This document shows positions 2,055-61,051 of a DNA stretch of 64,000 bases, one piece after another. The notes under the pieces are model-generated. The model was not told where the DNA came from. It saw only the letters and a list, made by a program, of their open reading frames with translations, and made no database searches. A program made the translations under genes and the position numbers. Source of the stretch: a virus; the IMG/VR virus record IMGVR_UViG_3300046804_002963, positions 1 to 64,000 of that record. One strand, 5' to 3'. The first letter of the stretch is position 1. Each line of letters starts with the position of its first letter.

Positions 2055-3458
2055 TCATGCTGGGGTAGCAAAACCTTTAGCAGATAACATTCCGTACCAA
2101 GTAGCACCACCATCCATAGTTGTGAGTGTTACTATATCAGTATAACCTGCTTGAGTAGATAGAGTAGGACCTGTAGGCGAATATATACCTTCTGCTGTTG
2201 GCCAGTATATGGTATTTAATGACCAATCCACTGTTCTACTACCAGTTCCATCCTGTTTTAAATAAATTGATAAAGAGTAATGCTTTGAGTTAGGAGCTGA
2301 CATCTGTACTGGAGTAATAGATCTATTAAGAGTCAATTTATAGATATTATAATGTAGAGCATTAATTAATACAGTACCAGAATTTGTTAATGTATCAAAT
2401 AACTCTCCGTAACTTTTAAATACAGTATTTGCTGTAGTAGCACCATTAAAATGTACGGTAGATACTCCAATTGGATTAGTTAGTACTGCAACGTTTGCAA
2501 ATATAACGTTAGTTCCGCCGCTGTTTACCATTAAGAAAGTGTTAGCGTAACCAGAATAGCTATCTGGTGTATCTGTTAAGTCAAGAATAGATCCGGTAAC
2601 AGCGCCACCTAAACCAGCAGACCCTTGATAGCCAGTTGGACCAATATCACCAGCTGAACCCTGATAGCCAATAAGTCCTAACGGACCTTCAGCTCCAGGA
2701 GAACCTGTATAACCAATAGACCCACTATAACCTACTGATCCTAAGTAGCCTGTTATACCTGCAGATCCTTGATAACCTTCTAACCCTCTTGATCCTGTAT
2801 AGCCTGCAGAACCTCTAAACCCTGTTGCTCCAGTTGATCCAGTATAACCAGCAGAACCTGCATACCCGTCACCATCAGGTCCTTTTGAGCCATCATAACC
2901 TACTGATCCTTGAACACCTGCAGAACCAATATATCCTGCAGAACCTCTATATCCTTCTACACCGCGTGACCCTGTATAACCAGTAGTACCAGCTGAGCCT
3001 TGATATCCTAGAAAGCCAGAAGAACCGGTATAGCCAGCAGAACCTGAAAAGCCTACTGCACCACGTGATCCTGCATACCCCATCTCTCCTTTTGATCCAG
3101 TATAAGCTATGCCAGGATCACCTGCAGAACCCTTATAACCTAGAGATCCTTGATAGCCCGATGAACCTTGGTACCCTACTCCACCAATAGAGCCAACATA
3201 ACCTACTGAACCTCTATAACCCTCAGAACCTTTATAGCCTGTTGTACCATCAGTACCCTTAGATCCCATATAACCAGTAGCGCCAATTGAGCCAGTATAC
3301 CCAGTATTACCTGTAGAACCAGTAAAACCAGTATACTCTAGTTGACCTTCATACCAGTAGGGACCTTGAGAGCCTAGGTATATAAAACTGCCAGATATAG
3401 CATTACTGCCATCCGGATTAGTTACATCTATCTGGGATACGAAAATCTTAGTGGTCAT
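2055..3458 (-). CDS. Collagen-like tail fibre protein with C-terminal head domain
   Basis: A 467-aa protein with three parts: a short N-terminal cap (about residues 1-38), a collagen-like stalk of G-x-y triplets dominated by G-Y-T-G-S, G-Y-Q-G-S and G-S-A (about 40-290), and a globular C-terminal head (about 300-467). The head ends with a pattern of Trp, Pro, LSTQ, TDIVTLTT, DGG and WYG. The same head type closes the proteins at 12259-12990 and 28303-34245. Collagen triplets imply a trimeric rod. The DNA has a perfect late-promoter octamer 31 bases upstream of the ATG and an AGGA ribosome-binding site. Probable role: trimeric side fibre or adhesin. No catalytic motif is visible. Confidence 0.82.
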   Translation of the reverse strand: MTTKIFVSQIDVTNPDGSNAISGSFIYLGSQGPYWYEGQLEYTGFTGSTGNTGYTGSIGATGYMGSKGTDGTTGYKGSEGYRGSVGYVGSIGGVGYQGSSGYQGSLGYKGSAGDPGIAYTGSKGEMGYAGSRGAVGFSGSAGYTGSSGFLGYQGSAGTTGYTGSRGVEGYRGSAGYIGSAGVQGSVGYDGSKGPDGDGYAGSAGYTGSTGATGFRGSAGYTGSRGLEGYQGSAGITGYLGSVGYSGSIGYTGSPGAEGPLGLIGYQGSAGDIGPTGYQGSAGLGGAVTGSILDLTDTPDSYSGYANTFLMVNSGGTNVIFANVAVLTNPIGVSTVHFNGATTANTVFKSYGELFDTLTNSGTVLINALHYNIYKLTLNRSITPVQMSAPNSKHYSLSIYLKQDGTGSRTVDWSLNTIYWPTAEGIYSPTGPTLSTQAGYTDIVTLTTMDGGATWYGMLSAKGFATPA

Positions 3459-16292: not shown

Positions 16293-17486
16293 TTAAATAC
16301 CTAAGAATAGGAAAGGATGTATAAACGTAGGAGCATCAGTCCAGTACACATTTCCTGTTTGACCGCTAGAAACTAATACCTGATTAGTATTACCTAAACT
16401 GTTATTTGCCGATACTCTAACTACCGTTAAAGTACTAGTAGAAGTAATATTACCAGAAGTTAAATTATTTATAGTAATACCATTAGCAACTACGTTGCCA
16501 GTTAAAGTTAGAGTTTTTGCAACTAAAGTATTACTTGATGTGATATTATTTGCAGTAATAGCATTTGCACCTAAGTTATTAGCTGAGATGTAAAGCGAGT
16601 TCATACTTGTTGATGCATTTACCGTAGCAGCTAATACCTGACCAAATGATAAGCTACCAGTTACTGTTAAATTACCAGTAGTAATTCCGCTTGTTACTGT
16701 TAGAGTATTAGCTGCAGCTGATCCAGTAACTGATAAAGAAGCACCAGATAAAGAATAAGTAACTGCTAGAGTATTTGCAGATATTGATCCTGGAATTGAT
16801 ATGGAGCTAAAATAAGGATTAGGATTAGATGCATCTACCCAAGCACTTGAATCTACATCCTCATAATAAATCTTTAAAGTGCCTTCTTCACTATTCCACC
16901 ATAAATCACCAGCAGCAGCTACTGGCGCAGAATTTGAAATAGTCACTGACGCTCCACCGCCACCGCCGCCAGCGCCTGCTGAGCCGGTATAACCTCTTAA
17001 ACCTTGATCACCCTTAGAACCAACATAACCTATAGAGCCAGTATATCCAAGATCGCCATATGATCCTGTATACCCAACACCTTGTGAACCAACATAACCT
17101 ATGGACCCAGTATATCCTAGTGATCCGGTATATCCTACAGAACCTGTAAATCCTATTGATCCTGTATAACCAACAGAACCATTATAACCAGCCGATCCAG
17201 CAAAACCTACTGAACCTGTATAACCTGCACCAGTAGAACCTGTATAACCTACACCAGTCGAACCTGTGTATCCTGTTGTACCAAATGAACCTGTATAACC
17301 AGTACTACCCAATGAACCTGTATAACCAGTACTACCCAATGAACCTGTATAGCCGGCTGATCCAGTATATCCAACTGTAGTAGAAGAAGCCTGCCAGAAT
17401 CCTCCAGCAGCAATCCATGTCCAGGATCTACTACCTAGAGTATAAACTTGACCGTTTGTAGGACTATTTGGAAAATTTATTGCCAT
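16293..17486 (-). CDS. Collagen-like fibre protein with FP-x-W docking module
   Basis: A 397-aa protein. Residues 1-35 are the shared N-terminal module (INFPNSPTNGQVYTLGSRSW-TWIA). A collagen-like stalk of G-Y-T-G-S, G-S-T and G-S-L triplets spans about 38-170. A small domain with SNSAPVAAAGDLWWNSEEGTLKIYYED follows at about 178-220, a type that also occurs in the 726-aa and 1130-aa proteins. The rest (about 220-397) is an Asn/Thr-rich shaft ending with one NQVLVSSGQTGNVYWTDA unit and a short FLFLGI tail. Two exact 27-base tandem repeats occur in the stalk DNA. A trimeric fibre is inferred from the collagen triplets. Confidence 0.78.
   Translation of the reverse strand: MAINFPNSPTNGQVYTLGSRSWTWIAAGGFWQASSTTVGYTGSAGYTGSLGSTGYTGSLGSTGYTGSFGTTGYTGSTGVGYTGSTGAGYTGSVGFAGSAGYNGSVGYTGSIGFTGSVGYTGSLGYTGSIGYVGSQGVGYTGSYGDLGYTGSIGYVGSKGDQGLRGYTGSAGAGGGGGGASVTISNSAPVAAAGDLWWNSEEGTLKIYYEDVDSSAWVDASNPNPYFSSISIPGSISANTLAVTYSLSGASLSVTGSAAANTLTVTSGITTGNLTVTGSLSFGQVLAATVNASTSMNSLYISANNLGANAITANNITSSNTLVAKTLTLTGNVVANGITINNLTSGNITSTSTLTVVRVSANNSLGNTNQVLVSSGQTGNVYWTDAPTFIHPFLFLGI
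17287..17340 (-). repeat. Exact 27-base tandem duplication in collagen stalk
   Basis: Two identical 27-base units (17287-17313 and 17314-17340) lie head to tail, followed by part of a third. Each encodes nine residues, that is three collagen triplets, so gain or loss of a unit keeps the reading frame and the triplet register. Confidence 0.9.
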
Positions 17487-18277: not shown

Positions 18278-21669
<3,392 letters not shown>

Positions 21670-21670
<1 letters not shown>

Positions 21671-28302: not shown

Positions 28303-31300
28303 TTAGAATCTAGCTGCTAAGGAACCAAACCAAGAAGTTCCTCCATCAGTTGTAAACAATGTTACTGCATCTGTTTTAGTTGCTGCAGTAGAAAGAACTG
28401 GCGCTACTCCACCATTCCATCTAATAGTGCCTGGCCATGACACTAATCTACCACCAGTAGCATCTTGTGTAATAAGAAGAGTCACGTTGAAAGCTCTACC
28501 AGCAGATAAGCCAGTGGTTGATAGTGTAATAGGAACAGTTGCTGCTGCTAGAGTAAGTGATTGAGTATCTCCTAATGTAATATCAATAGCAGTAGATGTT
28601 GTTACTGATCCTATTGCTCTTACTAATTCACTATAATATTGGAAATTAATAGCACCAGTAAATGTATATGAAGAAGCTGGGTTAAAAGCTCCCTGCGGCC
28701 CTGTAGGACCTGTGGCGCCTTGCGCACCTGTTGGACCTGTGGCGCCTTGCGCACCTGTTGGACCAGTAGAGCCCTGCGCACCTTGGGCACCAGTAGCTCC
28801 CTGTGGGCCTTGTGGACCAATAGGACCAACATCACTTATATTCCACGCAGCAATAGTTCCAGAACCACCAATAAAATCAACGTTTACTATTAATGTAGTG
28901 CCAGAGAATGATGTTATTACACCATCCATAAAGTTTGTAGGTGTTGCAGACGATGCAACACGAACACGCTGTCCTGCAGCAAATGCGCTGGCAGTAGATG
29001 CTAGATTAGTGGTAAATGTTTGAGAGCCAGTTGCTATAGCAACTGATGTGGTACTAGTAAGACCGCGATAACCAATACCCTGCGCCCCTTGTGGTCCCTG
29101 CGCCCCTTGAGCTCCTGTAGCTCCTTGGGCTCCAGTTGCACCTTGTGGTCCTTGAGGTCCTGTAGCACCTAAAGTACCACTAACACCTTGAGCTCCCTGT
29201 GAACCAGTATAACCTACTACACCCTGAGGACCAGTAGGACCAGTTGCACCTTGCGCACCTGTTGGGCCTGTAGCACCTTGAGCTCCCTGTGCTCCAGTTG
29301 GACCGGTTGAACCAGTTGGGCCGGCTGGACCAGTAGAACCTTGAGCACCTTGGGCGCCAGTAACACCTTGTGCTCCAGTTGCACCTTGGGCGCCTGTAGG
29401 TCCAGTTGGACCAGTAGAACCTTGCGCGCCAGTAGCACCCTGTGCGCCAGTTGATCCTTGAACACCTTGTGGGCCTTGAGCGCCTCTAGAACCTGTGTAG
29501 CCAGCATATTCTAAGAAGATTTCTGATACAGCCCACAGATCATTATTATTAGATGAAAATGTTGATTGATTATATCTTAAATAAACACCAGTAGCTCCTT
29601 TTGCACCTACAGGAATTATTACTGTATTAGTATACCATATACCTGGGGTGCTATCAGTAGCTATAATTGTATGTGCTGTTGTCCAGCTAGATTTATCTAA
29701 AGAATATTCAATAGTTACATCTTCACCAGATTCAGGAGCATTCCCCCACACTCCGTCACCAGCAACATAAGAAAATTTAAAGTTTACAGCATTTTGTAAA
29801 TATGATTTATAGTTTGAATAAATGTATCTATTTGCTTCACCGTTTAATACAGCTATTAAACTAAAGCCGTTCATATCTAAGCTAGAGCCAGTTCCATCTA
29901 CATCGTTGTAAATTTGTATGAAGCTAGCTATACCATTTGCAACATATTGTCCTTCTCCAAAGCTTAAGCCCTTGAAAGAGGATATAGCAGGTAGCCCTCT
30001 AGAACCTGTGTAGCCTGTATTACCTTGTGGTCCCTGAATACCCTGTGCACCCTGTGCACCTGTAAGTCCAGTAGTACCTTGAGTACCTTGAGCACCTTGT
30101 GGTCCCTGCGCACCCTGCGCACCTTGTGCTCCAGTTATCCCGGTAGGTCCAGTTGAACCAGTATCACCTTTTGATCCAGTATAACCAGCTGAACCAGTAT
30201 AACCTATTGATCCTGTATAACCAGTAGATCCAGTATAGCCAGTAGATCCATCATAACCTGTGATACCTCTAGACCCAGTATATCCTATTGATCCTGTATA
30301 TCCTACAGAGCCTGTATAACCTTCTGAACCAGTATAACCAATAGATCCTGTATAACCTTCTGAACCTCTATAACCTATATTACCATCTAAACCTGCAGAC
30401 CCAGTATATCCTTCAGACCCAGTATAACCGGAAGAACCTGTAAATCCTGCTGAACCAGTATCACCTCTATCACCAGTTCTTGCAAAAGTAATGATAGTGT
30501 TAGTACTATCAGTAAAATACTCATCTCCGCTTACATAAGAAATAGGAACAGAGAAATATTCTTCAGTATAATTATCATATAATGTGCCTACAATAGCAAA
30601 CATGCTAAAGTGTGCAGCATTTGTTAGATCAGTTATCTTGAAATGACCTTTTATTTGAGAAGTAGAATCATCTATAGTTCTCAAATAAGAAGATATCTCA
30701 TCTCCGTATGCATCATAATAACTAATATAGAGTGTATTAGCATCACCAAAAGGTTGATCATTTATTGTAAAAAAACCATTTGCAGGTGCTATTACACCTA
30801 AATCAGCATCTAAATTATAGTGAAAAGATGCACCGCCAAATTGACCTGTAGGTCCTTGAACTCCTTGAGGACCAATTGCTCCTCTAGAACCAACATAACC
30901 TAAGTCACCTCTTGAGCCAGTATAGCCTCTTGAGCCTGTAAATCCTATAGAACCAACATCTCCCTGTGGTCCTATAACCCCCTGAGATCCTACAAAACCT
31001 GTATCACCTCTTGAGCCAGTAAATCCTTGACGAGATGCTACACCCTTCTCAACATTTCTTACTTCTACATAAGTGCCTTCAGGTGGTTCAAAAAGTAATA
31101 CTAATGTATTACCAGAAATAGTATAAGTTACGTCTGGTACTTGAATAATACCATTTACTGATACAATGGCGTTATTTTGACTTCCTATCCATTCAGCAAG
31201 AGAGAAAGTATTTTGTCCTGCTGTAGTAATAAATGATTCAGATGTAGAATTAGCTGCACCTGTTGAACCTGTATAACCAGTATCACCTTGAGATCCTGTA

Positions 31301-34245
31301 TAGCCTGCACCTCTAGAGCCTGTATATCCTATAGATCCAGTATAACCGTCGCGACCAATATATCCAGGTGAACCGGTATATCCAATGGCAGCATATTCAC
31401 CACTTGAACCAGTATAGCCGGCGCCCGCTGACCCGGTGTAACCAAATTCACCCTGTGATCCAACGTAACCTACATCACCTCGTTCACCTATAGGTCCTAT
31501 ATCACCTTGTGAACCAACATAGCCTACATCACCTTGTGAGCCAACATACCCAACAGATCCTGTGTAACCTATTGATCCTGTATAACCTAATGACCCATCG
31601 TAACCGGTGTTACCTTTTAGACCTTGTGACCCAGTAAAGCCAACAGATCCAAAGTAACCATGACTACCAGTATACCCAACAGAACCATCATAACCAGTTC
31701 CAACAGAACCTGTATAACCTAATGAGCCTGTATAACCAGATGAACCAGTAAAACCAACAGAACCTGTATAGCCAGTGTCACCGATATCACCTGTTCTTGC
31801 AAAAGTAATTACTACATCATCATATGCATTCCAATAATGAATACCATCAATAAATCCTACTGGAAGTCTATAACTAGTTCCTGTTTTAGTTGAATGACCT
31901 ACTATAGTAAATAGAGAATACAATTCTCTATCTTCATATCTTCTAGTAATAGTAAAGTGACCTTTGATACTAGAAGTAGAATCATCAACAATTGCTAGAT
32001 AGTCAGTTATATCTGTATTAGATATATCTTGAGTATCAATAACTAAAATAGTTGCTTCTGCAACATTAGCACTATTTAATTTTAAGTAGCCAGGTAATGT
32101 GTCTGATAAGTCAGTATTTGCATCAAAGTAGAACTGGAATGCTGCACCACCAAATGTACCTGGAGGTCCTTGTGAGCCGGTATAACCTATCGGACCTGCT
32201 ACATCACTTGCTGAACCAGTATAACCAGTAGAACCTGTATAGCCTTCACTACCAGCAAAGCCTCTCGATCCAGTAAACCCTGCGCCAGAAGATCCTGTAA
32301 ACCCTCTAAACCCAATTACACCTTGTAGGCCGCGCGAACCAGTATATCCAAGTGAACCAGTATAACCTACGTCACCTATTGAACCAGTATATCCAGTTTC
32401 ACCAGTTTCACCAAACGAGCCTGCTGCTTTTTCTACGTTTCTTACTTCTATAAATGTTCCCTGAGGGGCATCAAAGAGAAGGTGTAAAGTATTACCAGAT
32501 ATAACATAACTAAGATCTGGTACTTGTACAATACCGTTTACTGTTACTATAGCGTTATTTTGACTAACTATACTTTCAAATAATGAAAAAGTATTTTGAC
32601 CATAATAATCTAAAGAAAAAGCTTGTGAGGTAGCATTCGTCATACCACCTGAGCCGGTATAACCGGTAGAGCCAGTAAAGCCCTTAGAACCTGTGTAACC
32701 TTTAGAACCAGTATAACCAGCACCAGTAGAACCAGTAAAGCCAGTCTCACCTATGAATAGATTTCTTAAACCTGAAATTGCCCAGTTATCAGAAGTACCT
32801 CCAGAACTATTAATTTGTTTAATTCTGAGATAGACACCTCCTGGAACTCTCATTTCTACTGGAGGTTCGATTCTTCTTTCTACCCAAACATTCCCTGCTA
32901 CGTTTGCAGGGAAAACATTATCAACACTTATCCAGGTATTACTATTAACACTATATTGAATTGTTATACCTTCAGGTACTCCACCTGGAGGATTTTGATC
33001 TGGAGCATCTCCCCATACAGCAGCTTTATTAACATAATAAGAGAATAGATGTACGTCGGTAAAAGATCTTCTTATGTTAGAAGTAATTACACGATCTTCT
33101 GTGAAACCTTCTAGCTTACCGAATAGAAATACCTTACCTAGGTAGTCGGTACTCATACCATCAATTAAGCTCGGGTAGTCAGTACTTACCGCAGAGCCAA
33201 GAGTAAGTATATCTAATGTTTCTGGATCTAGTAAGTAATCAGAAGATACACCTGGTGTGCCTCTTGATCCAGTAAAACCTATTGTTCCTTGTGAACCTCT
33301 TGAACCCGTATAACCAGTAGAGCCGCCATACCCTGCACCTGTAGAACCAGCATACCCTCTTAGACCTTGCTGACCGGTTGATCCAGTATATCCTAAAGAT
33401 CCTGCATAACCTGTAGATCCAACATAACCAGAAGACCCAGTATAGCCTGCCTCTTCAAAAAATCTTACTTCTACATCTGCACCAACAGCAGGTAAGTTAA
33501 TGAATGTAAGAGTGCTACCATTTGCAGTATAGTCTGTGTCTGGTACTTGAATAAGACCATTTACAGATACAAAGAGATGTAAAGCGTTTTCTGTTTCTAC
33601 ATCAAGTGTGTATTCGGAAGAACCGTCTGCTGTTATAACTTGATTTCTTGTTGGAGCTCCTGCCGGGCCTCTTTCACCTTGAGAACCAACATAACCTGAA
33701 CCTCGAGGACCTTGTGTACCTGCAGGTCCTCTAGAACCTACGTAACCTATAGAGCCAGTAAATCCGGATAGTCCTTGTGAACCTTCTGATCCAGTATAAC
33801 CTCGAGGACCACCTGGATCACCTTGTATACCTTTAGAACCTTGATAACCGGTTAACCCTTGTGAACCTCTATATCCTGTTTCACCAAAATATCTTATTTC
33901 AATATCAGCAGTGGCAGGAGGAGGTGAGTTAAAGAATATTAAATTGCCGCTTACATTATAATCTTCGGCAGGTAAAAGTACTAGACCATTGGATATAACC
34001 ATTATATGAACAGGGTTATCAATAACCTCTGTCATATTAAATTCAGTAGTTAATCCGTCACCAATAAATCTATCACTTTTTCTAGGAGCGCCTGGACCTC
34101 CTCGAGAACCAGTAAACCCGGAAGAACCAGTATACCCTACTTCTATATCAACTTGAAGCCAACGCTCACCATCATACTCCCATGTATTGCCGTTAATATC
34201 GACAATATCACCTGGACTAGGATTATCTGGAAATACAATTGCCAT
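28303..34245 (-). CDS. Giant collagen-like fibre (1980 aa) with many inserted domains
   Basis: The largest protein here. Residues 1-35 are the shared FP-x-W docking module ([19 protein letters not shown]). Collagen-like stalks alternate with globular modules: an about 65-residue NG-x-x-x-P-x-x-D/S-Y module at about 58-125, 200-262, 538-602 and 1000-1060; a reeler-like beta domain at about 345-500 and again about 1415-1578; and an FGGA...ITFARTGD domain at about 697-817 and 1133-1257. From about residue 1580 the triplets change from G-Y-T-G-S to Q/A/P-rich types ([16 protein letters not shown]). The last about 125 residues are the head found also in the 467-aa and 243-aa proteins ([31 protein letters not shown]). 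Probably a very long trimeric side fibre. Confidence 0.84.
28706..28759 (-). repeat. Exact 27-base tandem duplication in the Q/A/P-type collagen region
   Basis: Two identical 27-base units (28706-28732 and 28733-28759) encode three collagen triplets each. They lie near the end of the 1980-aa gene just before the head domain, in a patch noticeably richer in G and C than its surroundings. Confidence 0.9.
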
Positions 34246-34248
34246 TTC

Positions 34249-36429
34249 TTACCTTACAACCGTAATATAAACATAAGCGCTATCATAAGCACCAAAATTA
34301 GAAGAATTTATTGAAATATCAAAACAAGACGTGTTAGGTATTGTGTTGTAAGATAAATTAACCATTACCGGATCTGTTGAATTAGATTCAGCTCTACACA
34401 TGCCTGTAACTATATAATTTTCATCTGTTTGCTTATTATCAAAGAATATTCTATAACTACCTATATTTAGTTTTGTTACATAAGCAATATTATTATTAGA
34501 ACGCATAACTTGATTAGAATTATTAGAACCGGTTCCGTTAAAATTTACCCATGCTTGTAAACCAGATGTAGTACCTTTAGATCCTGTATAACCTATACCT
34601 GTTGATCCTGTATATCCAATTGAACCTGAGTAACCTAGATCCCCTCTTGATCCATCATAACCGGTTGAACCAGCATATCCTATAGAACCTGTATAGCCTT
34701 TACCGCCAAATCCTTGAGAACCAGTATAACCTACTGCTGCATATGCACCACTAGAACCAGTAAAGCCTTTAGCGCCTCTAGGTCCTTTAGCAATACCTAC
34801 CCAGTTATTAGCGTCTTCATAAAAAATATTTAAAATACCGTTATCTGTATCCCACCAGAACGTTCCGTTGTTTGGAGTGGGAGGACCAGAATTACTCATA
34901 TAAACTACTGTATAACCTTCACGACCAGCTGAACCTCTATAACCGGTTGAACCTCTATAACCGGTTGAACCAAAATAGCCAGCCTCTGCAAAGTATCTTA
35001 CTTCTATATCAGAATTAATAGCAGGCTCGCTAATAAAATCGATATATGATACTTCAGTGTTTACATTATAATCAGTAAACGGCATCTGTAGTAGACCGTT
35101 TACTGTGACTAGAATAGTAACTGGATTGGTAACTGTATAGTTTAAAGGATAAGAAATAGATCCATTAGCAACAAAGAATTCAACGGTACTAGGAGCTCCT
35201 ATCGGGCCCACAGAACCAGTATAACCTCTTCCTCCAGCAATGCCACTACTTCCAGTATGTCCAATAGAACCAGTATATCCTATTCCAACTGAACCTGTGT
35301 ACCCTGCTCCAATAGAACCAGTATATCCTAAAGAGCCTGTATATCCTGTTGTGCCTCCTGGTGCACCTGCTGAGCCTTGATAACCTACTGACCCCTTATA
35401 TCCTACAGAACCTGTATAACCTGCAGGTGAGAAATATTTTATTTCTATATCAGAATTTAATGGTGGAGCATTAAAAAGTAGTAGCTTATATTGATCAGGG
35501 GCATTATAATTTACTGTGTAATCAATATCTGCTAATTGTACTAATCCATTTACTATTACGAATATGTGAAATGAATTAGATACAGGGAGTGATAAGTTAT
35601 ATTCAGTAATAGAACCGTTACTTACAAATTGTTCGCATAATGTAGGTGCACCAGCTGGACCCATTTGTCCTCTAGAGCCGGTATAACCTGGAAAACCTCG
35701 AGGTCCTAGCGATCCGGTAAAACCAGTTGATCCCATATAACCGGTAGGACCTCTATCACCTACTGCTCCTACAGATCCTCTGTATCCGGTTGAACCTGGT
35801 ACACTTCCAAAGTATCTTATTTCTATATCTGAATTATTCTCTGGTACGTTTATAAAAGTGATAATATCATCTTCAACCGTATAATCCAGAGATGGTAGTT
35901 GCATAAGTCCGTTAACAACTACAAATATGTACTCTGGTTTACCAGTATTTTCTAATAGATTATACGTATCACTTCCGTCAGCAACAAAAAATTGAGTATC
36001 AGTGGGACGTCCTGTTAAACCTCTTGACCCGGTATACCCAATACCAGTGTCACCTCTATCGCCTTTTGAACCTGTATATCCAGTAGGACCACCTGGAGCT
36101 CCTGGTGCACCTTCTGACCCTTGATATCCTTCATCGCCTCTAGAACCTTGATATCCTGGACCTCCTGCTCCTACTGAACCTTGATATCCAACAGATCCTG
36201 TATAACCAGTATTATTTGCAGCAAAAATTTTTACTTCAATATCTGTTTTATTTACTGGAGGATATACAAAGGTTACAACACCATTAAAAATGGTGTAATC
36301 AATTTCAGCTAACTGTGACAACCCATTCACAATAACAAGCGCACTTTCAGTGCTTACATTACTAGTTAACGTGAATTGAGTGTTGCTTCCGTTACCTTGA
36401 AAATATTGACTGTTAATTACAATGGCCAT
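34249..36429 (-). CDS. Collagen-like fibre protein with four NG-Q-P modules
   Basis: A 726-aa protein. Four copies of an about 65-residue beta module lie at about residues 8-70, 143-210, 270-342 and 415-480. Each has F-x-G/A-N/D-G-S near the start, VNGLxQxP or VNGLSQLA in the middle followed by xDY, and SDIEV/I-R/K-YF at the end. Short collagen-like stalks ([18 protein letters not shown]) join them. Near 535-575 is a TVVYMSNSGPPTPNNGTFWW-DTDNG domain as in other collagen fibres. The C-terminal about 105 residues (AWVNFNGTGSNNSNQVMRS...AYVYITVVR) form a distinct head. A late promoter lies upstream. It is divergent from the glycosyltransferase gene. Confidence 0.82.
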   Translation of the reverse strand: MAIVINSQYFQGNGSNTQFTLTSNVSTESALVIVNGLSQLAEIDYTIFNGVVTFVYPPVNKTDIEVKIFAANNTGYTGSVGYQGSVGAGGPGYQGSRGDEGYQGSEGAPGAPGGPTGYTGSKGDRGDTGIGYTGSRGLTGRPTDTQFFVADGSDTYNLLENTGKPEYIFVVVNGLMQLPSLDYTVEDDIITFINVPENNSDIEIRYFGSVPGSTGYRGSVGAVGDRGPTGYMGSTGFTGSLGPRGFPGYTGSRGQMGPAGAPTLCEQFVSNGSITEYNLSLPVSNSFHIFVIVNGLVQLADIDYTVNYNAPDQYKLLLFNAPPLNSDIEIKYFSPAGYTGSVGYKGSVGYQGSAGAPGGTTGYTGSLGYTGSIGAGYTGSVGIGYTGSIGHTGSSGIAGGRGYTGSVGPIGAPSTVEFFVANGSISYPLNYTVTNPVTILVTVNGLLQMPFTDYNVNTEVSYIDFISEPAINSDIEVRYFAEAGYFGSTGYRGSTGYRGSAGREGYTVVYMSNSGPPTPNNGTFWWDTDNGILNIFYEDANNWVGIAKGPRGAKGFTGSSGAYAAVGYTGSQGFGGKGYTGSIGYAGSTGYDGSRGDLGYSGSIGYTGSTGIGYTGSKGTTSGLQAWVNFNGTGSNNSNQVMRSNNNIAYVTKLNIGSYRIFFDNKQTDENYIVTGMCRAESNSTDPVMVNLSYNTIPNTSCFDISINSSNFGAYDSAYVYITVVR

Positions 36430-36432
36430 GAG

Positions 36433-36460
36433 TTGCCTAAATTAGCGTAAGATATATAAT
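36433..36460 (+). promoter_or_regulatory. Sigma70-like promoter for the glycosyltransferase
   Basis: TTGCCT (36433-36438) and TATAAT (36455-36460) are separated by 16 bases, a good host-type promoter about 33 bases upstream of the plus-strand ATG. If used, the gene would be expressed before the late genes that surround it. Confidence 0.5.
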
Positions 36461-36474
36461 AATGATATTCGTTA

Positions 36475-36482
36475 TATTTATG
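36475..36482 (-). promoter_or_regulatory. Late promoter-like octamer (CATAAATA)
   Basis: A minus-strand variant of the T4 late element, 46 bases upstream of the 726-aa fibre gene. Its predicted start almost coincides with that of the plus-strand sigma70-like promoter, so the two would compete for the same DNA. Confidence 0.45.
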
Positions 36483-36492
36483 TGAGGTTATT

Positions 36493-39351
36493 ATGGATCG
36501 TATTTCGATCGCTTTTCTTGATTTAATTGGTCTAGTCTATGATGGTAATGCTTTAAATAAGCGCGGACTAGGCGGTTCAGAATCAGCTATTATTCTTATG
36601 TCTCGCGAACTCGTCAAGCTTGGTTTTGACGTTACAGTTTTTTGTGCATGCGAAGACGAAGATAATAAGCCTGGTACATATGATGGTGTAGTCTATAGAC
36701 CTGTTGAATCGCTTGATAAAAACGACAAATTTGACATTGTAATCTCATCACGCACTGTTATACCATTTGTTCCAGATTGGATGTATGAGCATTTTGATAC
36801 ATCTACTGCATTTCCTTGCAAGCTCTTTAAGACTATTCGTGATAATGCAAAGTATCGTATTCTTTGGATGCATGATACATTTTGCCGTGGTGATCAGGCT
36901 ATCGAAGATCTTCTAGTGTACGGTAATATTGACAAAATTTTTACACTCAGCGATTTTCATACATCATATATCACTAACTGCGATCATGGTTATAAGAAAC
37001 GTAATTTTGAAGTTCTTAAGAATAAAACATTTATTACTCGCAACGGTGCAGTAAATTATTTTGATGAAGTAGATATTTCACAAAAGGATCCCTTCCTTTA
37101 CGTTTATAATGCTTCACTTACTAAGGGAATGATTCCTCTTATTGATTATATTTGGCCAGAATTTAAAAAGCGTGTTCCTGAAGCTAAACTTAAAGTTATT
37201 GGTGGTTACTATAAGTTTCGTTCAGATGGTCCATTAGACGAACAGGGTGTTCGCTGGCATCAGCTTGTTAAAGAACAGAAGTATAAAGATCTTGATATTG
37301 ATTTTACAGGTATTATTCCTCAGAGAGAGATTGCTGAAATTCTTTCTCGTGCTTCTTTCTTTGCATACCCTTGCGCTTTTCCGGAAACGTTTGGTATCTC
37401 TACACTCGAATCACTTCTCTACAATACACCTGTGCTTGGTACACGCTTTGGTGCATTAGAAGAGACAGCTGTAGAAGCTGCATCATATCTTATAGATTAT
37501 GCTATTGAACCAAATGGTCTGTTTCCTAAGATTGATGCTTCAGAACAAAATGCTAAATTTGTTGAAATGATGGTACGCGCTCATCATGATAGTTACTTAC
37601 ACCAACAAAAGCAATACTATTGCAATATTGTTAAAGATGTTGCTGGGTGGGATACAGTAGCTCTTCAATGGAAGCAGCATTTTTATAAGTTTTTTAAGAA
37701 ATACCTTCCTGTAGAAGAATATAGAAACGTATCTTATATTAATGATAAGGTACATCGAGTGTTTGGACGCCGCTTTAGTAATCCTCAAGAATGGAATACA
37801 CTTAAAGCTAATAAAGAACGTCACATTAATATTATTAGTCCATTTTATAATGCTGAGAACTATATTAAAGATTTAATTATGTCTACTGCAACTCAAGATT
37901 ATGAGTCGTGGACACATTATCTTTTAGATGACAGTTCAACTGATGATTCATTAAAGGTGCTAGTTGAAACATTAGCAGAATTACCAGTACATTTGCGAGC
38001 CAAATATAAGATTGCAGCATATAAAGAAAATAGAGGTGCAGTACGCAATCAGGTAGATGCTATCCGTGATTGTCAAGATGGCTCTCTTATCATGTTGCTG
38101 GATGGTGATGATTGTCTTATGCCAGACAATAACATTTTTAACTACTATAACCGTCTTTTCGAAAATGATAAGACTGAATATGCTTATGGAAGTTGCTGGT
38201 CACTAGCAGATAATATACCGCTTATTGCGCAACCATATCCGTTGGAAGTAAGAAGAAATAAGTCTTATCGCACTCACAAATTTAACTGGGGTATGCCATA
38301 CCCACATTTACGAGTATTTCGTAAAGATCTTATCAATAATCTTGAAGACTATCTCTTCCAAGATGAAGCAGGCGAATGGTACCGCGCAGGTGGCGATAAT
38401 GCTACTTTCTATAATATTATTGAACAAGCAGATCCAGATAAAATCGTTGCAGTTCAAGATATTTTCTACATTTATAACGATAAAAATCCACTAAACGATT
38501 ATAAAGTTAATGGTGAGATTCAAAACATTAATGCAGGTAAAATTGCTAATCGAGTTTATAAGCAACCTGCTGCAACACCAAGAAACGCTGGTAGAAGTAG
38601 AAATAATTTAGGAAATTCTGCCAATAACCCACAACCACTTCCAGTTATTGAAATAGATCCTACTATCTCTAGAGTACCTCTCTCATTTAAAACAAATGAA
38701 GGAAGAGAGAGTATTCAGGATAGTGAAACGGAGGATAGTAATATTACTAAAAAGAAGAAAATATTAATTGCAATCCCTATGGCAAAATATATTGAAGTGC
38801 AGACATTTAAAGCTGTTTATGATCTTGATGTACCAGATAATGTAGAGACAGTATTTCAATACTTCTATGGTTATAATGTAGACCAGGTACGTAATCTCAT
38901 TGCAGATTGGGTAGTCAAAGGAGACTATGATTATCTGTTTGCAGTTGACTACGATATTGCTTTCCCTTCAGATACTCTTACTAAGTTCCTATCATATGAT
39001 AAGGACGCAGTTTCAGCTATCTACAAGCAACGTGTACCTGATAGACAAACAATAGAAGTCTTTAAGAAGAATGAACAAGGTGGATATTATCATATTCCTT
39101 ATGATGAACTTAAAGATAAGGGGTTAGTAGAAGTTGACGCATGTGGATTTGGTTGCGTACTTATTAAACGTAAAGTGTTTGAAGATATTGGATATCCTCA
39201 ATTTGAATACAAGTCTGCAATCAGTCATGAGCATACATTCTCAGAAGATCTTGACTTCTGCAGAAAAGCTACAAATTTAGGATTTAAGATTTATGCCGAT
39301 ACAAGTGTGATATGTGATCACTACGGCCAATATAATTTTAGAATATCTTAA
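36493..39351 (+). CDS. Three-domain glycosyltransferase (GT4 + GT2 + GT-A-like)
   Basis: A 952-aa protein with three transferase domains. Residues about 1-405 are a GT-B fold GT4 domain with GLGGSESA at 25-32 and the E-x7-E pair E298/E306 in PETFGISTLE. Residues about 443-665 are a GT2 (GT-A) domain with IISPFYNAENYI, DDSSTDDS and the DGDD motif at 537-540. A low-complexity linker (about 690-752) leads to a third GT-A-like domain (755-945) with VDYD at 818-821, SEDLDFC at 917-923 and CDHYG. No signal peptide or membrane segment is seen, so it is cytoplasmic. It is the only plus-strand gene within the left 60 kb and lies between collagen-like and S74 fibres. It may glycosylate fibre stalks or host surface sugars. 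Acceptor and sugar are unknown. Confidence 0.86.
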   Translation: MDRISIAFLDLIGLVYDGNALNKRGLGGSESAIILMSRELVKLGFDVTVFCACEDEDNKPGTYDGVVYRPVESLDKNDKFDIVISSRTVIPFVPDWMYEHFDTSTAFPCKLFKTIRDNAKYRILWMHDTFCRGDQAIEDLLVYGNIDKIFTLSDFHTSYITNCDHGYKKRNFEVLKNKTFITRNGAVNYFDEVDISQKDPFLYVYNASLTKGMIPLIDYIWPEFKKRVPEAKLKVIGGYYKFRSDGPLDEQGVRWHQLVKEQKYKDLDIDFTGIIPQREIAEILSRASFFAYPCAFPETFGISTLESLLYNTPVLGTRFGALEETAVEAASYLIDYAIEPNGLFPKIDASEQNAKFVEMMVRAHHDSYLHQQKQYYCNIVKDVAGWDTVALQWKQHFYKFFKKYLPVEEYRNVSYINDKVHRVFGRRFSNPQEWNTLKANKERHINIISPFYNAENYIKDLIMSTATQDYESWTHYLLDDSSTDDSLKVLVETLAELPVHLRAKYKIAAYKENRGAVRNQVDAIRDCQDGSLIMLLDGDDCLMPDNNIFNYYNRLFENDKTEYAYGSCWSLADNIPLIAQPYPLEVRRNKSYRTHKFNWGMPYPHLRVFRKDLINNLEDYLFQDEAGEWYRAGGDNATFYNIIEQADPDKIVAVQDIFYIYNDKNPLNDYKVNGEIQNINAGKIANRVYKQPAATPRNAGRSRNNLGNSANNPQPLPVIEIDPTISRVPLSFKTNEGRESIQDSETEDSNITKKKKILIAIPMAKYIEVQTFKAVYDLDVPDNVETVFQYFYGYNVDQVRNLIADWVVKGDYDYLFAVDYDIAFPSDTLTKFLSYDKDAVSAIYKQRVPDRQTIEVFKKNEQGGYYHIPYDELKDKGLVEVDACGFGCVLIKRKVFEDIGYPQFEYKSAISHEHTFSEDLDFCRKATNLGFKIYADTSVICDHYGQYNFRIS

Positions 39352-39554
39352 AAGAAACTAGGAACATCGTTATTAGTTCTTGGCACTGTTGGTGTGGTGC
39401 CAAGAACATCAGATGCTCTCTGCTTAAGTACAGATAATGTTTCTATAATTCCATTATTATTTTTACAAATTATTTTAGTTTCTAGAGGTGCAGTTCTAGC
39501 AACAGTAACTAAAATATTATCATATTTTCTTATAGTTATTTTAGTATCACGCAT
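39348..39554 (-). CDS. Small protein of unknown function
   Basis: A 68-aa protein, first about 45 residues basic and beta-rich (ITIRKYDNILVTVARTAPLETKIICKNN), then a Thr/Pro-rich tail. It is not recognised. The gene follows the 108-aa gene with a one-base overlap, and its stop overlaps the stop of the convergent glycosyltransferase gene through the bases TTAA. A strong inverted repeat lies within its last third. It is probably a real gene by packing and an ATG start, but evidence is limited. Confidence 0.5.
   Translation of the reverse strand: MRDTKITIRKYDNILVTVARTAPLETKIICKNNNGIIETLSVLKQRASDVLGTTPTVPRTNNDVPSFF
39376..39407. terminator. 11-bp inverted repeat between convergent genes (possible terminator)
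   Basis: GTTCTTGGCAC and GTGCCAAGAAC form a perfect 11-bp stem with a 10-base loop, 25 bases past the glycosyltransferase stop and inside the last codons of the 68-aa gene. Neither strand has a convincing T-run after it, so it may be a terminator, a pause site or an mRNA-stabilising hairpin. Confidence 0.4.
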
Positions 39555-39880
39555 TAGCGTGTTACTCCAGGATTAACTGTTATAAAACCTTCAATAATTC
39601 TAGAAGTGACATTATTAGCAGACAGTTCTAAATCATATACATATCTTAATTGATTTAATGTTGATGTAGTTTCAGCATTCATAGATAATGATATTAGACC
39701 AGCTCCTCCATCTACAGTAACATTCATAGATACCGAATTAGAAGAAGTGTATGTTCTTCTTAGTTGAGCTTCTCCGGTATAACCACTGATATCAAATATA
39801 TTACCGTCTTCATCTATAAGATATAAATTGTAGATAAAGTTAGCACCTTGATCGACAATAAGGTTAGTCTTTATTGCCAT
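39554..39880 (-). CDS. Small baseplate/fibre adaptor-like protein (BppU N-terminal-like)
   Basis: A 108-aa single-domain beta protein: DQGANFIYNLYLIDEDGNIFDISGYTGEAQLRRTY in the first half, then GGAGLISLSMNAETTSTL and a final RIIEGFITVNPGVTR. This strand order resembles the N-terminal domain of upper baseplate proteins such as BppU, which attach receptor-binding parts, and similar small proteins recur in cyanophages. The gene overlaps its upstream neighbour by 10 bases. It may link the adjacent S74 fibre to the baseplate. The homology is judged by eye. Confidence 0.6.
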   Translation of the reverse strand: MAIKTNLIVDQGANFIYNLYLIDEDGNIFDISGYTGEAQLRRTYTSSNSVSMNVTVDGGAGLISLSMNAETTSTLNQLRYVYDLELSANNVTSRIIEGFITVNPGVTR

Positions 39881-41541
39881 TCGTTTACCTTATAAGGGTT
39901 CTTTAGTCTATCTACTTCTTTAGATAGATCTTTAATAGCTTCTATAAGCAATGCTACAATTCTATCATACTTAACAGCTTTTGTACCATCTTCTCTAGTT
40001 GTAACTACTTCTGGTAATACCTGCTCAATTTCTTGCGCGATTACACCTACGTCATGTTTACGTATAAATGTACCGTCTTCACCACCGTGAGTTGCAATAT
40101 AATCATCAGTCCAGTCAAATTCTACACCTCTAATAGCGTTTACTTTTGCTATAGCATCCATAATTGGTAGAACGTTTTCTTTTAATCTCTCATCTGATGA
40201 ATAATAAGAAGTAATATTATCTGTAGCTCTTATCTCACCCGTTACGCCAGATGCACCAGTACCTACACCAAGTGATTTTACTTGAAGGTCATATGTTGGT
40301 CCAATATTAGGAATAGTGAACCAGCTTAATTTACCTGAACCATCAGTGGTTAGCAATTGACCTGCAAGACCAGCATCACCTGGTAATGTTAGAGTATATG
40401 CACCAGCAGCTGCATTTGCTTGCAATTTAATAGAACCAGATGTGCTACCTAGTACTCTAATAGCACCATTTACAACTAATCTTTCATTAATTCCGTTTCC
40501 AGTAATACCAATACCTAGGAACGAATTAGCAAAGTATGATAATGTTTCATCTACTCTAAATTGTTCTAATAAAGTTGGAGTACCACCAGTGGTTGCTCCC
40601 TTAAAGTTACCAAATTCTAATTTAGTCTCACCCATTCTTAAATATTGACCAGAGGTGTTACCTGCTACATCAGAATTATCAAGTGCTTTATAAAGGTTTC
40701 TTGTAATCCAGGAAGCATTACCAGCAGCATTATAAAAGAATGATCTATTATCATTACCTACCCAAGAATGACTAAAACTTAATGCATTTCCAGTTAAAGA
40801 TACATTGCTGGTTAGTTTTAATGGGTATAAGAAAGCAACATTGGCGCCAGTAAAATATACATTGCTAGTTATTGTATTTACAGATAATACATTGCAATTA
40901 ATAGTGTTTGCCCAGATAGTATTAGCATGGATATTAGTAATCCATAAATCAGTTGCAGTCATCTTGGCATTAACGACGTAGGTGCCTAGAGGGTTATCAT
41001 ACACCTCAACCATTTTACGTGTTACATAAACGTTAGCTTCATTATCACCAAAACTGGCCGCGTTAGACACATTAATGTATCTAGAATTAGCAGTATAAGT
41101 GTATGTAAATGTATTAGCTATCTTAGTAACACCTACCTGAACTGAGTTTGCAGAGTAGATGTCATTAGCTGTAATATTAGCAGAATTAAGGATAGAAGAA
41201 CCAATTGCTGCTTGTGTGCTAGTTAAAATAGCAGCACCACCATTTACTGATATTCCATTAGCGTTATAAACAGTATTTGAAGATGAACTAGTTTGAATTA
41301 AAAGAGTAGTAGAGTTAGCAATTGCATTAGATGTTGAAGTGCTAAAACTTACAATACCAGTGTTTGGAACGTTAAATACGTTAGCGGTAAACCAACCAGA
41401 TACTGCAGCATTACCTAGCGCTGTATTTGATTGAGTTGTAACTGCAAATGTTTTAATAGCAAAGAGAGCTTGATTGGTTCTGGTAACCCATCCACCAAAA
41501 GAGTCTGTGCTTGTTTCTACGTTAGCTATAGCTATTGTCAT
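39871..41541 (-). CDS. Tail fibre with C-terminal S74 intramolecular chaperone (self-cleaving)
   Basis: A 556-aa protein. Residues 1-440 are Asn/Thr/Val-rich shaft with one GQLLTTDGSGKLSWF unit near 395. The C-terminal about 110 residues form a peptidase S74 chaperone: SDERLKENV at 449-457, GVEFDWTDD at 472-480, DVGVIAQEIEQVLPEVV at 497-513 and a closing helix LLIEAIKDLSKEVDRL. Family members help the fibre trimerise, then cut themselves off with a Ser-Lys pair five residues apart; here S449 and K454 fit. The final ALLIEAIKDLSKEV helix probably forms the trimer bundle. It overlaps the 72-aa gene by four bases (ATGA). Strong call. Confidence 0.88.
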   Translation of the reverse strand: MTIAIANVETSTDSFGGWVTRTNQALFAIKTFAVTTQSNTALGNAAVSGWFTANVFNVPNTGIVSFSTSTSNAIANSTTLLIQTSSSSNTVYNANGISVNGGAAILTSTQAAIGSSILNSANITANDIYSANSVQVGVTKIANTFTYTYTANSRYINVSNAASFGDNEANVYVTRKMVEVYDNPLGTYVVNAKMTATDLWITNIHANTIWANTINCNVLSVNTITSNVYFTGANVAFLYPLKLTSNVSLTGNALSFSHSWVGNDNRSFFYNAAGNASWITRNLYKALDNSDVAGNTSGQYLRMGETKLEFGNFKGATTGGTPTLLEQFRVDETLSYFANSFLGIGITGNGINERLVVNGAIRVLGSTSGSIKLQANAAAGAYTLTLPGDAGLAGQLLTTDGSGKLSWFTIPNIGPTYDLQVKSLGVGTGASGVTGEIRATDNITSYYSSDERLKENVLPIMDAIAKVNAIRGVEFDWTDDYIATHGGEDGTFIRKHDVGVIAQEIEQVLPEVVTTREDGTKAVKYDRIVALLIEAIKDLSKEVDRLKNPYKVNEWQ

Positions 41542-41759: not shown

Positions 41760-44700
41760 TTACTTCTGTAATGCTATTGCTCTGATATCTCTCACAATTG
41801 GTATTGTGACAGGGTCTGTTGATAAGAATACCATCTTCAAGCAGAATGTAGAATAGCGATAGTACTGTACACCTGCAGAATCAAAGTAAGTTATACAATC
41901 AGCAGCACCTTGAGAAGAAAGTGAATTAGGATCTAAGTATGCGGTAGTTGAATTTGCTACTGAATTGCCAGTTGGAAGAGTAAATACAAGTTCTTTATAA
42001 TCTTCTCTATCTTTAGGAGAACTATAAAGTGTATATTGTGAAGTAGTTGTGAAAACTAATTCAGTCCATTCTTTAGTATCAAACAGGTCATTATCTGTTT
42101 GATTCTGAAACTTAGCGTATACCTTTACATCAGTCTTTACAGGACGATAAGCTGTCACGTAGACTAATAGATCTTCTGCTTCTTGAGTTAAAGATACATT
42201 CTTAGAAATATACTTATTGAGAGCACTACCATAACGAGTATTTTCGTTAGTAGTATCATTGTTAATTAAATTTTTAACAAAATTAAGTCTCTTAGTAGAA
42301 AGATCAACTACTGGTGATACGTATTCGTTACCAGTAAACATATCTATCACATATGTGGCAGATCCGTTAGCACCATATCCACCTTGAGCTAGTTCATTAG
42401 AATAACTACGCAATACTCTTTCATAATCACTTAATTCAAATAAACTTTCATTCTTTACTTTGAGAGGTAAAGTATCCTTAGTGAAGGAGTTAGTAGAATT
42501 ACTAGTTCCAAAATAACTAATTTCTGCAATAGTGCCTACAGGCTCTAGAATAGAAAATTTAGGAACCATTCCATGATAAGCTTTATCATCTACTGTTTTA
42601 AGAACAGCATTAGCAACTAGGTAAGTATTAGATAGATACGCTACATTTCCTACTTCTGGTACTCTAAATAATCTTAAGTGTGGGTATGTTGTATTACTAA
42701 ATTTACCTGTTGATGTATCGATAACTAACTTGTTATTTAATTCGTCAATATCTTGAATAATACCAAAAGGATAGTAAGTATTATCTATTAAAATTTGGTT
42801 TACGTTAGCTGTATTAGCAGCATATATAACATCCCCAATAGCAGGTGCTACTGAATTGTTTGCTCTTATAATAGAATCTGTTGTTAAGTAATCATCTTTT
42901 TCGTTATTAAATACAGCCTTACCTGTTAAATATTTAAATTTAGCACGATATAGGTTAAATTTAATATCTTGAGATTGAATAGGGGTCCAGTTATTACCAG
43001 TAGATGAAGCGTACATAATTCCTACGAAAGGATTACCTGTAATAGCATTTCCAGAAACTTTATCTATTCCTCCCACCTCTGAAATCCAAAGTTCATAATC
43101 CGGATTTGCAAAGTCTGGTTCTAGATAGAAAGCATATTGTTGGTCTGATTGAAGCAATACTGGAGTTTCGAAAGTAAATACAGTTTCACCAGAAGAATCA
43201 TCACTAGTAACAACCTCGCTTGATTCTTTTCTAGCATGTCCTAATATTCTATTTGTATTAGGAGCACCATTAGTAGTTTCACATACGAATGCAGTTATGC
43301 CAAGAGATTGACTCTTCTTCTTAAAGAAAGCGCCTAATTGTGTTAAGTATATGCCAGGAATATTAGTTCCTGGAAGATTGTTAATTGTGAATGTTTGCGC
43401 AATAGGGTCTCTATTATGAGCAAGATAACCATCTGCATAGTAAGTATGATCGCCATCTAACACAAAATTATAAACTGTTTGTGTCTTGTCTATATCTTCA
43501 TGTCTTTCAATACTCTTAACTATAACTGAACCATTATCAGTAATAATTTCATCACCAACATTTAATCTAGAAGTGTCAAGATAGTTAATATGTGGTTTAG
43601 CTAGACGGGTAAGAGCAGGATCTATAGACTTCCATCCACTCTTAGTTAGCAGAGGATGCTCAGAAGTAATAAAAGGACGACCCCCGTTGATACCGTAAAG
43701 GTATGGATCTCTTATTCCATCATCTAGTGGAGGATGATCAAAACCTAAAACGACATTATTTACATCTTTACCTTTGAGAATATCACCTATCTCTACATTT
43801 TGAATTTCTTTATAGGAACCGTCTGCCATAGTAACTAGAGTACCGGCTGCAAAACAAGAAAGCCAAGTAGAGGTCGTAGTGGTAGTTGACCAATTAGCAG
43901 TATTTACTTCAACGCAAGTAGTAGGGTAGAACGTAGGATTAGTAATGTTAAAAGTAAGTTTAGTCTTTCTAGTAGAAAGAGCACTTGCCGTATACACACC
44001 TTCAGCAAAAGTTATAATAGCATCTTTTGCATTAATATCATCTACGTTAGTTAACGCTAAGATACGGTCTCCAGATCTAAAAGTGTTTGCTGGAAGATTA
44101 AAAACTAAGTATGCATTACCAGCACTATCAGAATAAATTTCACCATTATTTACATTAGAAGGATATAGAGCAGGAAAATAATCTTTATAATTATTTACTG
44201 CTTTAAGAATATTATCTTCTTTACCTGCTGCACTTGCAATACCTACACCCCCAGCAAAATCTGGATTAACTATAGCGGGAGAACATTTATCAGTTACGTT
44301 TACTTTATCAAAAAATGCATATAACTTTGTTAGTGGTTTTAAACCTCTAGCAATTACTGCAATTCTTCTTGGAAGCATGTAGTATAAGTTAGATACGTCA
44401 GTAACAAAATTACCAGCATCAACGTTAATGTTTTCAATATTAACACCGATGTCAGTAATTGTTCTTGTAGTTGTTTGAGAATAATAATTTGTAGTAGTAT
44501 CGTATCTTGTATTATTCTCTACATGTGAATCTACTAGAGTAGATCCTGTTAATCTTACTGGACCAACTACTGTATCAATATTCTGTGCAATTTTTGTTTG
44601 ACGTAAAAATGTATTAAAAGCACCAGCAATATCAATGTTAATATTTTGTGGTGCATTATCTACGTTTTGATTTGAGTTATCATAATTAGGGTATAAGTTA

Positions 44701-60592: not shown

Positions 60593-60604
60593 TGGTATCT
60601 CAGA

Positions 60605-61051
60605 ATGGCTTACAAAGGACGATTTAAACCTCATAACCCTCAAAAATATAAGGGTAATCCAACTAACATTATATACAGAAGTTTGTGGGAGTTAAGGTTT
60701 ATGAGGTATTTAGATCAACATAATGATGTTATAGAATGGTCATCTGAAGAGATTATCATACCCTATAAGAGTCCTATTGATAATAGGTATCATAGATACT
60801 TTCCAGATTTCTATGTTAAAATGAAAGATCAAAACAACCAAATAAATACTATGTTAGTAGAAATAAAACCGAGAAATCAAGTTAAAGAGCCAGTAAAGAA
60901 AGATGGAAAAGTAACTAAAAGATATCTCAATGAAGTCTTTACTTTTGGTATCAATTCAGCTAAATGGAAAGCAGCTGAAGAATTTTGCAAACAAAGATCC
61001 TGGCAGTTTAAAATACTTACAGAGAACGAATTAGGAGTTGGTAAAGGTTAA
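60605..61051 (+). CDS. gp4: Head completion nuclease gp4
   Basis: A 148-aa protein, the T4 gp4/50 head-completion family. YRSLWELRFMRYLD (24-37), RYFPDFYV (64-71) and MLVEIKPRNQ (83-92) give a TnsA-like nuclease pattern, with E29, D68 and E86-x-K88 as candidate catalytic residues. In T4 gp4 finishes the DNA-filled head. The gene opens the plus arm. Its stop overlaps the next start by one base (TAATG). Confidence 0.9.
   Translation: MAYKGRFKPHNPQKYKGNPTNIIYRSLWELRFMRYLDQHNDVIEWSSEEIIIPYKSPIDNRYHRYFPDFYVKMKDQNNQINTMLVEIKPRNQVKEPVKKDGKVTKRYLNEVFTFGINSAKWKAAEEFCKQRSWQFKILTENELGVGKG

Follow-up and report, generated by a model that had tools for sequence, protein, structure and literature searches.

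The window analysed here is a stretch of 64,000 nucleotides from the IMG/VR virus record IMGVR_UViG_3300046804_002963, a fragment of 65,186 bases. At positions 36493..39351 on the plus strand, in the tail module of a T4-like phage, lies the gene P0001, which encodes a protein of 952 amino acids in which three glycosyltransferase (GT) domains are fused. Its open reading frame (ORF) is intact from an ATG start, and full-length orthologs were found in dozens of phage contigs. We propose that the product is probably a cytosolic modular enzyme that acts during assembly to modify the collagen-like tail fibres of the phage itself. The sequence comparisons support a link between this enzyme and fibre stalks with a G-Y-T-G-S (GYTGS) motif that is specific and reciprocal across several phage groups.

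The link was seen in a sample of contigs chosen solely by DNA encoding three consecutive GYTG repeats, with whole contigs then searched for the enzyme. Contigs already found via the enzyme were excluded, and one of the 36 was discarded because it had no real GYTGS stalk. A full-length ortholog was present in 25 of the remaining 35 (E <1e-150, 46-67% identity). These positives form 20 clusters at 80% GT identity and 14 at 70% and are therefore not one phage counted repeatedly. No ortholog was found in 50 contigs chosen by GPT or G[A/P]Q (GAQ/GPQ) repeats, among which about 43 show a genuine collagen frame (Fisher p = 8e-14; 1e-12 when the comparison is confined to real collagens; neither value is phylogenetically corrected). 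A tie between the enzyme and collagen in general was rejected on this result. In the reverse direction, 20 contigs chosen by the enzyme, a few of them from the same phage, gave PF01391 matches in 18 and GYTGS stalks in 17; the three without GYTGS are fragments of 31-38 kb, two of which begin inside the GT gene. When 24 contigs were chosen by the baseplate protein gp6, stalks and enzyme occurred together in 2 and neither occurred in 22, and one gp6-chosen relative (G028) carries a GPT/GAQ collagen and no ortholog. The two positives of this sample are closely related to each other and to the window and add little independence. Large contigs with the enzyme encode Gp23-type capsid ORFs of about 392, 400, 424, and 461 amino acids, and a clear T4 gp6 is present in only some contigs with the enzyme. 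The enzyme and the GYTGS stalks therefore occur together in several phage groups.

The stalks themselves are highly regular. An earlier note on this DNA, made from the letters alone, had described the regular G-Y-T-G-S spacing, and the count bears it out: among 195 triplets with an aromatic residue at X in the five GYTGS-type collagen genes of the window, Thr occupies Y in 67% and Ser comes next in 97%. All collagen genes of loci with the enzyme were also counted, with no motif filter (2,234 aromatic triplets). Ser stands at X of the following triplet in 99.6% of the 1,501 cases where Y is Thr and in 96.5% of the 733 where it is not, and Thr is found at Y after the aromatic residue in 66-69%. 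In control phage collagens, Ser followed the aromatic triplet in 9 of 78 cases (12%). The Ser codons come from both the TCN and the AGY family in 25 of 38 genes and the stalk repeats have diverged at the DNA level; the Ser residue therefore appears to be under selection and not the product of recent duplication. Since Ser is near-invariant after aromatic triplets and Thr is present in about 67%, the best acceptor candidate is probably the Ser of G-[YF]-x-G-S, with Thr second. Tyr is unlikely to be the acceptor, as Phe takes its place in about one-quarter of the motifs. Thr at Y as the sole determinant was rejected, since GPT-repeat phage collagens mostly have a Thr fraction of 0.36-0.93 at Y and the enzyme was never present in the tested sample of them. 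The earlier note had pointed to Thr at the third triplet position, and this part of its proposal probably has to be revised: it is Ser that is fixed, and Thr-rich GPT collagens occur without the enzyme. Its broader suggestion, that the enzyme glycosylates collagen-like fibres, has good comparative support in a narrower form. The reciprocal co-occurrence, the adjacency in T4-like phages, and the fold of the third domain speak for it, but for GYTGS-type stalks only and not for GPT collagens.

The fusion of a GT4, a GT2, and a GT-A-like domain in one protein, as first read from the translation, agrees with the intact ORF, the Pfam matches, the phrog_1574 profile, and the predicted fold. Domain 1 (residues ~4-430; 36502..37782, plus strand) is a GT4 domain of GT-B fold with matches to PF00534/PF13692. 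The Pfam Glycos_transf_1 / Glyco_trans_1_4 match covers residues 199-336 (E 2e-9, 37.6 bits against a cut-off of 26.4), the E-x7-E motif of GT4 enzymes (E298...E306) is at least 90% conserved in the ortholog alignment, and structures of GT4 enzymes, for example 3mbo and 6kih, match its fold. Domain 2 (residues ~441-686; 37813..38550, plus strand) is a GT2 domain of GT-A fold (PF00535, E 1.9e-15), with a Glycos_transf_2 match at residues 447-614 (57.6 bits against a cut-off of 23.3) and a segment, D537-G-D539-D540, that includes the DxD motif and is invariant in the alignment. A linker predicted to be disordered (residues 688-751; 38554..38745, plus strand; predicted local distance difference test score, pLDDT, <50) parts domains 2 and 3. 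This linker is variable: some relatives lack it, and in others its place is taken by an FkbM methyltransferase domain or an additional GT-A domain. Domain 3 (residues ~752-952; 38746..39348, plus strand) has no Pfam match above the cut-off and belongs to phrog_1574 by its profile match (residues 793-950, E 2.6e-23), GT-A fold, and DxD motif; its conserved motifs are D819-x-D821, S917-E-D919, and H943-x-G945.

A search with the full-length structure returned mainly general GT-B and tandem GT-A enzymes, and domain 3 was therefore modelled separately (AlphaFold pLDDT 92). In a Foldseek search of the PDB, the top match of this model was STIV A197 (5.9e-12), an archaeal-virus GT, followed by human COLGALT1 (3e-9), LH3 (1.6e-8), yeast Mnn9 (4.7e-8), and mimivirus R699 (6e-8), which we take to be the mimivirus collagen galactosylhydroxylysyl glucosyltransferase. 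Polypeptide GalNAc-transferases ranked lower, at 3e-6 and weaker. The likeness of the predicted fold to collagen glycosyltransferases is a hint to the type of substrate and not to family membership: no GT25 or procollagen galactosyltransferase family was among the Pfam matches of P0001 up to E 0.1. The protein also has no Pfam match to TPR and no membrane segment (maximum Kyte-Doolittle value over 19 residues, 1.35), and no flippase-type partner was recognised among those conserved neighbours of the gene that were examined.

A scan of IMG/VR yielded 80 loci with 45-62% identity, nearly all of them full-length or ended by a contig edge, which form 29 clusters at 90% identity. Annotated phages gave partial and distant matches only. 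Among 84,980 bacterial and archaeal genomes, a single relative was found, on a 12-kb contig of a metagenome-assembled genome with a phage-type gene order that includes GYTGS collagens. With dozens of orthologs in phages and one phage-like contig among these genomes, the enzyme is, by its sequence distribution, a phage family; a bacterial origin or use was rejected, since the lone relative sits in phage gene order. The modules of the enzyme vary among relatives. Of 54 representative loci, 30 have a fused FkbM methyltransferase domain (PF05050) and 4 more encode it in a neighbouring gene. Other variants have an additional GT-A domain or a duplicated GT4 domain or are divided between two genes at a domain border; two tandem GT4 domains are found in one relative (L067:1296-6032), and the GT4 domain is matched twice within one frame on contigs G048, G059, and G079. 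As separate observations at these loci, a 2OG-Fe(II) oxygenase (PF13640; L584:7200-7760, plus strand) is encoded immediately before the GT gene of one relative, and relatives of it lie near the GT gene in L593, L595, L596, L059, and L070, a pairing of hydroxylase and GT reminiscent of animal collagen modification. At another locus, genes of cytidylyltransferase-like and PfkB type, known from ADP-heptose synthesis, lie just downstream of the GT gene (L069:15044-16175, plus strand) and could supply a donor sugar.

In the window, P0001 adjoins a collagen-like fibre gene divergently, separated by 63 bp (36430..36492). This is the arrangement of a GT gene beside a collagen-like gene that is known from SgtA, and the neighbour may likewise be the substrate. 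Among T4-like phages, about 20 loci have a GYTGS collagen fibre gene on the opposite strand immediately 5' of the GT gene, and 22 loci encode a 108-amino-acid protein immediately 3' of it. In jumbo phages, the GT gene lies downstream of giant fibre genes, which are sometimes GYTGS collagens (L586, L605), or has a tail-sheath-stabiliser gene or another structural gene next to it. The gene is thus consistently within the structural region, and adjacency to collagen is mainly a trait of the T4-like group. Linkage to unrelated loci in other phages, which the earlier note had set against its proposal, was checked: the surroundings are fibre or structural genes, and the contig in most cases also encodes GYTGS stalks, although collagen is often not adjacent in jumbo phages.

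On the proposed mechanism, a GT-A domain, most likely the third (phrog_1574), would add the first sugar to the stalk, and the GT4 and GT2 domains would lengthen the glycan. The third domain is favoured as the initiator because its fold is, apart from the archaeal-virus GT, closest to collagen glycosyltransferases. In many relatives, the fused or neighbouring FkbM methyltransferase would cap the glycan with methyl. The enzyme probably recognises G-[Y/F]-x-G-S, with the Ser at X of the triplet after the aromatic triplet as the main acceptor and the Thr at Y between the two as a possible second one. The product would be a short glycan on the stalk Ser, and perhaps on Thr too, often methyl-capped. 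It may stiffen the stalks, mask them, or alter their binding properties. Stabilisation is not a given purpose, because the unglycosylated collagen of an Escherichia coli prophage melts at 42 C (PMC3368898). We give about even chances to the wider proposition that large aquatic phages of several groups have a dedicated, phage-specific machine, a single protein of three to four GT domains and often a methyltransferase, that recognises G-[Y/F]-x-G-S as a new sequon, present in up to hundreds of copies along the triple-helical stalks of the tail fibres. The machine would build a methyl-capped glycan sheath, a Ser-based collagen modification that evolved without hydroxyproline or hydroxylysine.

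Several findings weigh against fibre glycosylation of this kind. The adjoining gene in jumbo phages is often another fibre or structural gene and not collagen, and 10 of the 35 GYTGS contigs lack an ortholog; these are mostly fragments, although one (G062) measures 259 kb. The only candidates for a stand-in GT in such contigs were weak pairs of GT4 and domain-3-like genes (G062, G077), which do not adjoin GYTGS stalks in the stretches read. The Ser rule also holds in the ten contigs without an ortholog (99%). These may be fragments, or the Ser may be structural; the near-invariant Ser of the other stalks could be structural as well. The window gene lacks an FkbM domain, and its 65-kb record, a fragment, yielded none either; the solved structures matched by domain 3 share only 10-16% identity with it. 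In addition, wherever a capsid gene was detected on a GYTGS contig, the contig is Gp23-type, compared to 4 of 43 controls, so that the lineage-matched comparison is small, and shared phage ancestry is part of the explanation for the association. In its strongest form, this last point would make the enzyme and the GYTGS stalks mere markers of the same large aquatic phage clades with no functional link, which we regard as very unlikely: phages of several capsid and baseplate classes have the pair, T4-like relatives at a similar gp6 distance from the window have both or neither, and the divergent adjacency is retained at about 20 loci.

The main rival is the usual reading of such genes in this region, namely, that the enzyme remodels a host surface polysaccharide (O-antigen or capsule) against superinfection, the tail-fibre region being a host-interaction island. 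In related pelagimyophages, the host-recognition island often contains glycosyltransferases, which have been read as modifying the host surface (PMC7029224). Sets of GT4, GT2, and FkbM also occur in surface polysaccharide pathways, weak NCBIfam matches of the enzyme include TuaG and WcaA, and the PfkB-type kinase and cytidylyltransferase next to the GT gene in L069 are as in sugar-nucleotide synthesis. However, host-surface modification leaves unexplained why the enzyme is found with GYTGS stalks (25/35) and not with other collagens (0/50), although shared lineage could still yield this pattern, and it does not predict a near-invariant Ser after aromatic triplets. We consider this explanation unlikely. 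We think it somewhat less plausible still that the enzyme glycosylates a part of the virion other than the collagen stalk, such as the capsid or the globular modules with which the stalks alternate in the window fibres. The adjoining gene in some lineages is a non-collagen giant fibre, and mycobacteriophages are known to glycosylate capsid and tail-tube proteins (as cited in PMC12619734). The feature common to the different lineages, however, is the stalk motif, with a Ser rule that other collagens lack.

The principle of collagen-repeat glycosylation by an adjacent GT is shown by SgtA of Clostridioides difficile, whose gene adjoins bclA3 and which adds GlcNAc onto Thr of the collagen triplets of this exosporium protein (PMC7157674). 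The phage system is similar in its gene arrangement, in a WcaA-related GT-A fold, and in the regular Ser/Thr of its Gly-X-Y repeats, the proposed acceptors. In contrast, SgtA has a single GT domain with TPR and acts on GPT triplets, whereas the phage family has three to four GT domains, often FkbM, no TPR that was found, and G-[YF]-x-G-S stalks. COLGALT1 (GT25), LH3, and mimivirus R699 are GT-A enzymes like domain 3, act on collagen, and are among its nearest solved folds after STIV A197, but identity is 10-16%, there is no GT25 Pfam match, and no hydroxylase domain is fused. They target hydroxylysine, whereas Ser/Thr is proposed here. A mimivirus collagen galactosylhydroxylysyl glucosyltransferase is described in PMC9546862. 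In flagellin-glycosylation islands, GT and methyltransferase genes or domains, including FkbM and methyltransferase-bearing GTs, lie beside the modified protein (PMC4875605). The modular logic is the same, but these islands are bacterial, their target is flagellin, and their GTs are of other families, mostly GT41. Mycobacteriophages modify their own particles (Freeman 2023, as cited in PMC12619734) and resemble the proposed system in that phage-encoded GTs act on virion proteins; they differ in arrangement and in the target, which is the capsid and tail-tube C termini and not collagen fibres. GT-A proteins of phrog_1574 from cyanophages and the methanogen virus vir323 are homologous to domain 3 (about 30-35% identity) but are stand-alone single domains. 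The vir323 homolog (L630:7381-9520) lies two genes upstream of a GDTGATG collagen-like tail protein, and no collagen was found near the phrog_1574 gene in the two cyanophages checked. We found no report of glycosylated phage collagen fibres in the literature searched. The roles usually given to phage glycosyltransferases are protection of DNA or conversion of the host serotype, and the present comparisons can link a large family to one particular virion substrate whose sequon is testable. If true, this would be a route for the large-scale modification of non-animal collagens, provide a compact enzyme for glycosylated recombinant collagen, and account for a repeat motif common across aquatic phage fibres.

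The proposed substrates in the window are all encoded on the minus strand. The divergent neighbour of P0001 is a 726-amino-acid fibre (34249..36429; PF01391 E 2.9e-25) with 84 triplets and 16 G[YF]TGS motifs, and its back-to-back order with the GT gene is the one that recurs in about 20 relatives. The others are fibres of 1,980 amino acids (28303..34245; E 1.3e-103, 54 motifs) and 1,130 amino acids (18278..21670; E 1.2e-88, 52 motifs) and collagen-like proteins of 397 (16293..17486; 14 motifs) and 467 amino acids (2055..3458; E 9e-34, 7 motifs). The four genes scanned all have a PF01391 match and long Gly-X-Y runs. In the 1,980-amino-acid fibre, reelin-subrepeat and F5/8 type C-like modules are interspersed with the collagen stalks. 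A promoter scan of the 63-bp divergent region gave a promoter-like match no better than chance; late-promoter matches (TATAAATA) lie on the minus strand near several structural genes, none exactly within this gap.

The earlier note had also described P0001 as the sole plus-strand gene in the left 60 kb, flanked by collagen-like and S74 fibres. Both descriptions are accurate: up to position 60,600, all other plus-strand ORFs of at least 90 amino acids overlap longer genes on the minus strand, and on the right side the S74 fibre is, more precisely, preceded by the 108-amino-acid protein. The latter (39554..39880, minus strand) is of a tail-fibre assembly type (phrog_1084, E 7.6e-25; phrog_3304), and the S74-type fibre (39871..41541, minus strand; PF13884, E 6e-14) has an intramolecular chaperone. 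The same tail module includes a gp6-like baseplate protein (51218-53005), with more baseplate wedge and hub genes up to ~59.7 kb of the window and a DNA end protector at 61051. A baseplate-type protein (phrog_358; 41760-45167, minus strand) contains a Hint/intein-like segment at residues ~437-585 (CFAAGTLVTMADG ... GYLAHN), where the PF05203 match (E 5e-6) is below the cut-off. Two large proteins (3502-6333 and 9413-12259, minus strand) have several Laminin_G_3 / concanavalin A-like lectin domains (E 9e-65 and 8e-58) and are possible glycan-binding fibre components.

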